NCBI RefSeq assembly: GCF_036172515.1
Contig: NZ_JAXKVW010000014.1
Coordinates: 1-64,000, forward strand
Length of the DNA: 64,000 nucleotides
Origin: Flexistipes sp.
GTDB taxonomy: Bacteria > Chrysiogenota > Deferribacteres > Deferribacterales > Flexistipitaceae
Direction of reading: 5' to 3'
Shown here: piece after piece, positions 16,317 to 49,109 of the stretch
Layout: each line of letters starts with the position of its first letter
Position numbering within the stretch: position 1 is the stretch's first letter
The notes under the pieces: generated by a model
Seen by the model: the letters and a program-made list of their open reading frames with translations, nothing else
Database searches by the model: none
What the model was told of the DNA's origin: nothing
Program-made: the position numbers and the translations under genes

Positions 16317-16970
16317 ATGCGAATTTTGATTATTGAAGATGACTTGGTTTTGGGCTCATCTGTACGGGATTATCTAAAATCCGAAGGTGAAAACGTGTCT
16401 CTTATTACAGATGACAGAAAAATCGACAGATTCTTTAACTTCGGACACTACGATATTGTCCTTCTGGATCTTATGCTTAAAATGAAAAAAGGGGAGTCCA
16501 TACTTTCACAGCTGAAAAAAAATAATCCTGAAATACCTGTAATGATAATTACCGCAAAAGAAGGTATAGAATCCAAAGAGGAGTGTTTTAAGAAAGGAGC
16601 TGATGATTATATCGTAAAACCGTTTGATCCGAGAGAGTTGCTGCTTCGGGTCAGATCTGTAAGTAAAAGATACGGCTGCCCGGCGGATAGAATGGAGATA
16701 GGGGATTTATGTATAGATGTTTCCGGTGAAACTATTTTTAAAAACGGTTGTGAGGTTAAGCTTACCAAAAGGGAGTGGGATATATTATATATATTACTGA
16801 TAAACCGCGGCAATGTTGTCAGTTTTGAAAAAATTATAAATTATGTCTGGGGGGATAAGCCGGTGGGAACGGAATCGGTTCGAACCTATATAAGGCATTT
16901 GCGTCAGTATCTTCCTGAAGATGCCATCAGAACGTATAAAGGAAGGGGGTATATGCTTGTCGGTCAATAG
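16317..16970 (+). CDS. OmpR-family response regulator
   Basis: Receiver domain with acidic pocket (EDD at 7-9), phosphoacceptor Asp51 (VLLDLML), Thr in MIITAKEG and Lys101 in YIVKPFDPRELLLR. The C-terminal winged helix (about 125-217) has TKREWDILYILL and TESVRTYIRHLRQYLP, ending with the usual YKGRGYML. MRILIIEDD fixes the N-terminus although no ribosome binding site exists, which fits a leaderless message. It is followed 47 bp later by its probable sensor kinase and lies between the gsp and pilin genes, so it may control one of them (inference). Confidence 0.93.
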   Translation: MRILIIEDDLVLGSSVRDYLKSEGENVSLITDDRKIDRFFNFGHYDIVLLDLMLKMKKGESILSQLKKNNPEIPVMIITAKEGIESKEECFKKGADDYIVKPFDPRELLLRVRSVSKRYGCPADRMEIGDLCIDVSGETIFKNGCEVKLTKREWDILYILLINRGNVVSFEKIINYVWGDKPVGTESVRTYIRHLRQYLPEDAIRTYKGRGYMLVGQ

Positions 16971-17017: not shown

Positions 17018-18262
17018 ATGAAAAAGCTTTTTAATGTTAGTTTTGAGTTGAAAATCTTTCTTTTCATTATTGTTACTCTGGTTATCGGTCTTTCGATGCT
17101 TAATGCCATTTTTCTCTATTCATTCAAGACGGAAATACAAAAGCGGATTTCCCTGGAAATTGACAGACATCAGGAGCTTAGCCGGTATACAAAACCGAAT
17201 GAACCTGCCTATCTTAAAGTTTCTGAAAAAAATATATTTATTCCCGGCTACGAATTGTATGATATCAGAGGCCGTTATAAATATTACGTGGACAAAAGTT
17301 ATTTAGCAGAGGAAGTCCGCAATAAATTGTTTCTGATGTTTTACTGGGATGCGGTCATAATTTTTTCCGTATCTGTACTGTATTATTTTACAGCTTACAG
17401 ACTGATTAAGAACCGTGAAAACTATTCAAAATCTTTTGAAATTATTCTTCTGGTATTGGGGCATAAACTAAAAAATTATCTTGCCGGCCAAAGGGTAAAT
17501 GCTGAGATTATCGACAGGGGTACTGATAGTTCTGTCATTGCAAAACCGAGCACTTTAGAATCTAAGTACTCGGTTGTGGCGATTTCAAAAGATGATAAAC
17601 AACGAGATTGCTTTGTCTCTGCCCAAGGGCGGATCCCTAACTTGTTAAATCCGACTTTGTCGGGCTGCGATGCAGCATTTAACAGGGCGAGCAAAGAGTT
17701 GCAGAACTTGCAAATGCGAAACTTGAATTATAAGCATATACGAGATGCTGTTAACAGAATCAAAACTGGAAACAGAATGCTGACAGCCGAACTGGAAAAT
17801 ATTTTTTCTTTTGTGAAAAAATTTGGGATTCAAAATAATACAAAATACAAAAAAAATACCACCAAAAGTTTTTTAAAACAAAATATTAATTTACCAGAGA
17901 TATTTGATGAGGTTGAGAAAGAATATTATGAAACACAAATCAGTTATGAAGATATTTCCGGTGGTGCGAAAAAAATTAAGAAAAAAATTAATTTAAAACG
18001 GGTATCTGTGAATTATGATGATATGAAATTTATTCTTTTTTTATTAATGGATAATGCGTATAAATATTCTGAAAATTTCATTTATATCAGGGCAGGAGTT
18101 TACAAAAGAAAAAAATATTTGTTCGTTATTAATGACTTCGGCAGTCCGGTAGAAAGCGGGTTGGGGGTAGGGCTGTCTGTTGCAGAGCAGCTGTGCAAAA
18201 AAAACGGAATAAAGCTGAGCTGGAATGCCGGCAGATATTTTACCTCTAAAATTATTTTCTGA
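17018..18262 (+). CDS. Sensor histidine kinase with a repeat element translated in frame
   Basis: Transmembrane segments lie at about residues 11-34 and 105-127, around a small periplasmic domain. The phosphoacceptor is His149 (LVLGHKLKNYLAGQR). The ATPase domain holds the N box (FLLMDNAYKYSEN, about 341-353), G1 (INDFGSPV) and G2 (GLGVGLSVAEQL). Between the histidine helix and the second helix (KHIRDAVNRIKTGNRMLTAE, from about 239) is an insertion of about 65 residues encoded by a T2-like repeat carrying modules P and C. The frame remains open through it. Typical hairpins of this domain have a short loop there. Upstream is a hexamer-like AAAGGCAAAGG purine run. The partner is the response regulator just upstream. 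Confidence 0.88.
   Translation: MKKLFNVSFELKIFLFIIVTLVIGLSMLNAIFLYSFKTEIQKRISLEIDRHQELSRYTKPNEPAYLKVSEKNIFIPGYELYDIRGRYKYYVDKSYLAEEVRNKLFLMFYWDAVIIFSVSVLYYFTAYRLIKNRENYSKSFEIILLVLGHKLKNYLAGQRVNAEIIDRGTDSSVIAKPSTLESKYSVVAISKDDKQRDCFVSAQGRIPNLLNPTLSGCDAAFNRASKELQNLQMRNLNYKHIRDAVNRIKTGNRMLTAELENIFSFVKKFGIQNNTKYKKNTTKSFLKQNINLPEIFDEVEKEYYETQISYEDISGGAKKIKKKINLKRVSVNYDDMKFILFLLMDNAYKYSENFIYIRAGVYKRKKYLFVINDFGSPVESGLGVGLSVAEQLCKKNGIKLSWNAGRYFTSKIIF
17545..17574. repeat. Module P, copy 2 (30 nt, within coding sequence)
   Basis: Ends ACCGAG / CTCGGT as in the other copies, but the inner arms are ACTT-TAGA and TCTAAGT, a different, still complementary pair. Encodes roughly residues 176-186 of the kinase. 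Confidence 0.85.
17640..17687. repeat. Module C, copy 5 (48 nt, within coding sequence)
   Basis: Outer arms ACTTGTTAAAT / ATTTAACAGGG (two mismatches) and inner hairpins CCGAC-TTT-GTCGG and GCTGC-GAT-GCAGC, different from all other copies but fully paired. Encodes about residues 208-224 of the kinase. Confidence 0.85.
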
Positions 18263-24902: not shown

Positions 24903-24930
24903 AGTGTACCTCTGTTTGTAAAATTACTTA

Positions 24931-25151
24931 ATCAAGTTTCACACTTCATTTTGTCTAGCATTCGCTTTTAGCGAATATATAGAATGTTAAACATATTTAT
25001 CAGTCTAAAAGACTGGTGCTAGCCATAGGCATCCTTGCGACACCCTCTGGAAACAGGGTTGTGGCAATCTCAAAACAAGAAAAGTAGAGAGATTGCTGCC
25101 TCGTTTTCACTCCTCGCAAAGACGTGAAAACAGTTTAAGTGCGAAACTTGA
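24931..25151. mobile_element. T2 element A, MITE-like, carrying module M
   Basis: Ends ATCAAGTTTCACACTT and AAGTGCGAAACTTGA form terminal inverted repeats of about 15 bp. ATTACTTA occurs perfectly on both sides (24923-24930 and 25152-25159), as a target-site duplication would. No coding capacity. The core carries GTGGCAATCTCAAAA and GAGATTGC. Module M is placed after TGTC. Confidence 0.85.
24955..25031. repeat. Module M, copy 3 (77 nt)
   Basis: Hairpin 1 here is ATTCGC-TTTTA-GCGAAT, versus ATCCGCC-TTG-GGCGGAT in copies 1 and 2: the same 17-nt length with paired replacements. The small hairpin is GCC-ATA-GGC. Confidence 0.9.
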
Positions 25152-25351
25152 ATTACTTATTTAAAAAATTAATTTGATACTAAAACTTTTCAAGCATAAA
25201 ATAACAAAAAAATTCATATAAATCAAGAGTCAAATGTGTTTGGTAAAAAATAAAAAGTATAAATTGAGGGTTTAAATAATTCAGGACGTGCGGTAACATG
25301 GTAGTTCAATGCTATTAGAAACAAATAGTTATTTGTTATTCATTGGGAAAG

Positions 25352-48708: not shown

Positions 48709-48767
48709 CGAGCCGGCGTTTTTCAATAAATAACTAAGAATAAATCAAGTTTCGCACTTCGTTTTGT

Positions 48768-48844
48768 CTAGCATTCGCTTTTAGCGAATATATAGAATGT
48801 TAAACATATTTACCAGTCTAAAAGACTGGTGCTATCCATAGGCA
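48768..48844. repeat. Module M, copy 4 (77 nt)
   Basis: Nearly identical to copy 3 (hairpin 1 ATTCGC-TTTTA-GCGAAT). Confidence 0.9.
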
Positions 48845-48929
48845 TCCTTGCGAAACCCTGTGGAAACAGGGTTGTGGCAATCTCAAAACAAGAAAAATAG
48901 AGAGATTGCTTCGTCGTTTTCACTCCCTG

Positions 48930-48976
48930 CCCTGTTAAATGCCACAGGCAATCAGCGAAGCTGATATTTAACAGGG
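48930..48976. repeat. Module C, copy 4 (47 nt)
   Basis: Outer arms CCCTGTTAAAT / ATTTAACAGGG; inner hairpins TGCC-ACA-GGCA and ATCAGC-GAA-GCTGAT, which differ from the other copies but remain paired. Sits between CACTCC and CAAAGACGTG, where element A reads CACTCCTCGCAAAGACG. Confidence 0.9.
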
Positions 48977-49109
48977 TGAACAAAGACGTGAAAACAGTGT
49001 AAGTGCGAAACTTGAATAACAATAAATATTTATTTCCACTTTCAATAAGTTTGAACCTTGAACCTTATTGTTACAGCACTTCCCGGATTATTCAAAATAA
49101 TTCAAAGCT

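Follow-up and report, generated by a model that had tools for sequence, protein, structure and literature searches.

A composite, MITE-like repeat lies in frame, and is presumably translated, within a sensor histidine kinase gene of Flexistipes sp., between the helix that carries the phospho-acceptor His149 and the second helix of the DHp domain. The gene lies in the stretch of 64,000 nucleotides that was analysed as a whole (the window). The explanation that best accounts for all observations, and that we consider very probable in its entirety, combines a single in-frame insertion, a deletion in UBA1873, a recombination tract and the persistence of the insert as a near-neutral passenger. The kinase and its partner were delimited as follows.

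17018 to 18262, + strand: sensor histidine kinase gene, 414 aa (open ORF, CpxA profile match, histidine kinase fold match, orthologues)
17462 to 17464, + strand: codon of the phospho-acceptor His149, invariant across the kinase family
16317 to 16970, + strand: partner response regulator gene, 217 aa (tblastn, 49–97% identity adjoining each kinase)

The regulator-kinase gene order is identical at all orthologous loci examined. The kinase is built from an N-terminal sensor part with two long helices, which are probably membrane-spanning, followed by the DHp and by a CA domain with a short lid. Neither Pfam, with no HATPase_c match above the cut-off, nor NCBIfam confidently recognised a kinase domain in the 414-aa protein; a profile search matched it to CpxA, and a fold search returned histidine kinases, its CA fold matching VanS and PhoQ at a TM of 0.77. 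The invariance of His149 and the helices found on either side in AlphaFold2 models support a phospho-acceptor in a two-helix DHp. The initial annotation had regarded all kinase motifs as intact, which holds for His149, Asn153, the N-box Asn346 and GLGVGL, all conserved in the kinase family (with Asn346 and the glycines of GLGVGL invariant in the orthologue comparison), but not for the H box, where His is followed by Lys, nor for the ATP lid, which is almost absent, nor at the level of a Pfam kinase domain. The His-Lys pair and the near-missing lid are family traits, because all members have both, including the orthologues without the insert. The window gene (17018–18262) and its orthologues L034–L041 form an order-level kinase family that falls below the Pfam threshold and in which the His-Lys H box is invariant.

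The copy of the repeat inside the kinase gene has the following anatomy.

17515 to 17725, + strand: composite MITE-like element, about 211 bp, recognised by repeat matches; its left end is approximate, being placed by means of a degenerate terminal repeat
17546 to 17573, + strand: module P hairpin CCGAGCACTTTAGAATCTAAGTACTCGG, with TTA in place of the in-frame TAA usual in P
17547 to 17552, + strand: left CGAGCA direct repeat, at the edge of the 141 bp missing from UBA1873
17578 to 17612, + strand: core hairpin GGCGATTTC...GAGATTGCT
17618 to 17633, + strand: small GC hairpin TCTGCCCAAGGGCGGA, with a similar hairpin in copies L002 and L065
17635 to 17691, + strand: module C hairpin CCCTAACTTGTTAAAT...ATTTAACAGGGCGAG
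17688 to 17693, + strand: right CGAGCA direct repeat, at the other edge of the 141 bp missing from UBA1873
17712 to 17725, + strand: right terminal repeat AAATGCGAAACTTG (consensus AAGTGCGAAACTTG)

That a composite repeat with modules P and C lies within the kinase frame was borne out, since both modules are present and 17018–18262 is open for 414 aa. The stretch 17533–17726, to which the repeat had been assigned, does consist of repeat and matches 38 places in the source genome (itself included), but the element starts further left, at about 17515, where its left end is degenerate. Only the right terminal inverted repeat (TIR) is clear, the left TIR and the target duplication being too degenerate to fix exact borders. 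The gain had been put at about 65 residues; compared with the outgroup orthologues, it amounts to about 72 codons by alignment count. Folded as RNA, the kinase copy retains its inner hairpins (z −3.4), and a consensus copy written from the intergenic copies also closes the outer stem (z −9.7). No stop interrupts the reading frame of the kinase copy, whereas 55 of 60 other copies have one in the homologous frame. By itself, the open frame is nevertheless weak evidence because 5 of these 60 are open there too.

About 60 copies of the family to which this one belongs have both ends; their TIRs measure 14–17 bp (CAAGTTTCGCACTT/AAGTGCGAAACTTG) and the basic element 140 bp. Many copies are flanked, outside the TIRs, by AT-rich target duplications of 6–12 bp (11/11 at L025, L059 and L076, for instance). 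Both features agree with what is expected of MITEs, namely TIRs of about 15–30 bp and target-site duplication. With at most one mismatch, TIR matches number 105 in the source genome, 65 in F. sinusarabici (type strain chromosome of 2,526,590 bp; PMC3236037) and 8 in UBA1873, against 0–1 per strand for the reversed control; copy counts were drawn from searches and from fetched genome stretches. The family is modular: one slot of the basic 140-bp element takes P, CCCTGTG..CAGGG or other hairpins, and C or ACCAGTC..GACTGGT hairpins occupy other slots of larger copies. Such modular copies include L022, L055, L065, L071 and L010, and those at 24930–25158 and 48743–49022 of the window. With lengths of 118–400 bp, the copies are too short to encode a transposase, and no parent IS with the family ends was found. 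In F. sinusarabici, 1.26 kb (1346347–1347604, L143) lie between inverted family TIRs and apparently form a large nested repeat array; this pair was discarded as a parent IS, as no transposase-sized ORF lies inside. The repeat was absent from every one of the 37 further genomes searched within the order, so that among the 40 related genomes only those of the genus carry it; Rfam returned no matching family for the window. We conclude that the family is most probably a non-autonomous palindromic transposable element of MITE-like type, restricted to the genus in the genomes searched.

Among 183 TIR-like sites, the kinase copy is the only convincing in-gene case. L060 (G000:C7:57508) was rejected as a second open in-frame copy because its position just ahead of an ATG start makes it a mere leader extension; the ORF overlaps at L012, L076, L089 and L119 are either spurious or due to an ORF end running into the element, and the match of L162, in a crotonase-like gene, is due to chance.

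The origin of the insert was traced by comparing three Flexistipes genomes, of which UBA1873 (Deferribacteraceae UBA1873, contig DDHP01000033) is a metagenome assembly with 88% completeness. In the same regulator-kinase operon, all eight orthologues from other families align with a short connection only and contain neither the element nor its residues. The F. sinusarabici kinase carries the full insert. The UBA1873 kinase retains the element only at its two extremities: a piece of exactly 141 bp (47 codons) is gone and a single CGAGCA is left. The remnant contains a TIR with one mismatch, and its remaining right arm is identical to intergenic copies at 35 of 37 positions (E 1e-9), which excludes chance. 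Module P is represented in the remnant by its first bases, so UBA1873 probably possessed the middle part of the element at one time. The element-free orthologues of eight genomes and the partly deleted UBA1873 allele together confirm that the extra residues were inserted and are not native to the kinase.

Judged from these alleles, the simplest history would be one in-frame insertion at the DHp hairpin loop in the genus ancestor, before the split between the three known Flexistipes species, and then one deletion in UBA1873, where the middle of the element would have been lost between the 6-bp CGAGCA repeats, in frame again. The gap of 141 bp is clean and the direct repeat at its edges looks like a target duplication, as would be left by two nested insertions: a short element, kept in UBA1873, would have come first, and the 141-bp piece would have been added afterwards in the lineage shared by the other two species, with duplication of CGAGCA. 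We consider this unlikely, given that the 141-bp piece starts inside the left arm of P and stops at the edge of C, borders that were seen in no other copy, that UBA1873 keeps the first P bases and both outer parts in a deletion-like manner, and that the duplications of the family are usually AT-rich and located outside the TIRs.

The same alleles bear on how the gene is read. As an ATG occurs inside the element ahead of a conserved downstream part, and as the hairpin-rich mRNA (z −3.4) could impede elongation, two proteins might be made, the second from an internal start codon within the element or downstream of it, such as the ATG at codon 233. This is very improbable: two species preserve the frame across the element, the third has kept it despite its deletion, the equivalent of codon 233 in UBA1873 is GTG, and such a split would part the two DHp helices. 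In the full-length reading, the stop codons of the element would have been lost or avoided through selection for the complete protein; the TAA of P, for example, reads TTA.

Selection acts differently on the element and on its flanks. Comparison of the source genome with UBA1873 gives a dN/dS of 0.09 upstream of the element and 0.15 downstream, and in the 23 element codons common to both, 11 of 54 nonsynonymous sites have changed, against 64 of 822 in the flanks (p = 0.004), which corresponds to a protein change about three times faster in the remnant. The kinase segments on either side are under purifying selection and the remnant is relaxed, in line with the initial view of an insertion tolerated at a loop; the reading frame is maintained through the element, its residues being free to change. 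From F. sinusarabici, the source genome differs in a mosaic manner, with 5 of 522 bases in codons 176–349 and 80 of 720 in the rest of the gene (p = 1e-14).

17543 to 18064, + strand: recombination tract, codons 176–349, whose identity to F. sinusarabici is 99%, against 89% in the stretches on either side

The near-identity of the insert in these two genomes (99%) was not retained as a sign of constraint, since the recombination tract explains it better; this tract may have spread or homogenised the insert-bearing segment in the two species. On the left, this tract and the 141-bp indel begin within about 10 bases of each other (window 17540–17552), a coincidence that could be due to chance or to integration guided by the CGAGCA microhomology. 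The response regulator (16317–16970) is 98–100% identical to that of F. sinusarabici (L032) in its N-terminal half and drops to 82% in its C-terminal part, which we interpret as a second mosaic tract beside that of the kinase.

As for the consequences at the protein level, a long and a short form of the kinase were modelled. At low confidence (loop pLDDT of about 33–50), AlphaFold2 predicts a helix at 133–171, a disordered segment at 172–213 and a helix at 214–269 for the long form, and helices at 93–170 and 182–227 for the short form; the insert thus appears disordered and the helices on both sides intact. The DHp loop is probably a permissive site, where the extra residues would yield a disordered loop and a few added helix turns in a kinase that would still work. 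In PMC5956149, which cites Ashenberg 2013, the length and handedness of this loop are reported to influence whether autophosphorylation occurs in cis or in trans. As the insert is situated at that very loop, inside a tract exchanged between species, it might have been retained for a change in signalling, for example a reset of the loop that decides between cis and trans or a longer helix 2. Such retention is improbable in our opinion: the tract reaches well past the insert, the remnant codons evolve under weaker constraint than the flanks, and two thirds of the insert are gone in UBA1873, which speaks against an essential role. Bolder still, and quite doubtful, is the proposal that the mobile element rewired the kinase, the new loop altering autophosphorylation, in direction or in set point, and the segment being exchanged between species because it was useful. 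Most likely, the insert is carried as a nearly neutral passenger and has brought no new function.

The gene exists in three natural states, with no element, a full element and a trimmed element, which provide a ready-made test of how far the DHp loop can grow and of whether its length by itself influences kinase behaviour. They add a clear case of selfish DNA turned into protein, none having been reported for the phylum in the literature searched, and suggest that an insert can persist through its harmlessness at one structural spot and not through usefulness.

Among known histidine kinases, CpxA, EnvZ and HK853 (HisKA-type) share the DHp-CA fold and the motif order of the Flexistipes kinase, which differs by its His-Lys H box, its nearly missing ATP lid and a DHp loop lengthened by about 72 codons. 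The closest behaviour is that of the Rickettsia palindromic elements (RPEs) found within protein-coding genes (Ogata 2000, 2002; Abergel 2006, as presented in the reviews PMC10969869 and PMC2229807), to which the initial annotation had likened the repeat. The parallel holds for a palindromic repeat of similar size that is carried in frame by a conserved gene and apparently tolerated, selfish DNA thereby becoming protein; for the RPE of guanylate kinase, the effect is described in these reviews as possibly neutral or slightly detrimental. The parallel does not extend to frequent in-gene location, which is exceptional in Flexistipes (one convincing case among 183 TIR-like sites) and concerns nearly half of RPEs. 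The Flexistipes element also differs by its typical MITE ends and by the stops that most copies have in the kinase frame. GTAG and CGTC REPs within ORFs (PMC3733652, which does not mention Flexistipes) are palindromic as well, and their clusters sometimes code for 20–82 residues that were spotted through shorter homologues, but their units are short (20–40 bp), unlike the Flexistipes element. Finally, ERIC, RU-1, RU-2 and other enterobacterial MITEs (PMC2759123) resemble the Flexistipes family in their TIRs, their mostly intergenic location and their occasional in-frame fusion to genes, whereas the latter belongs to a different phylum and is made of composite copies with interchangeable hairpins.
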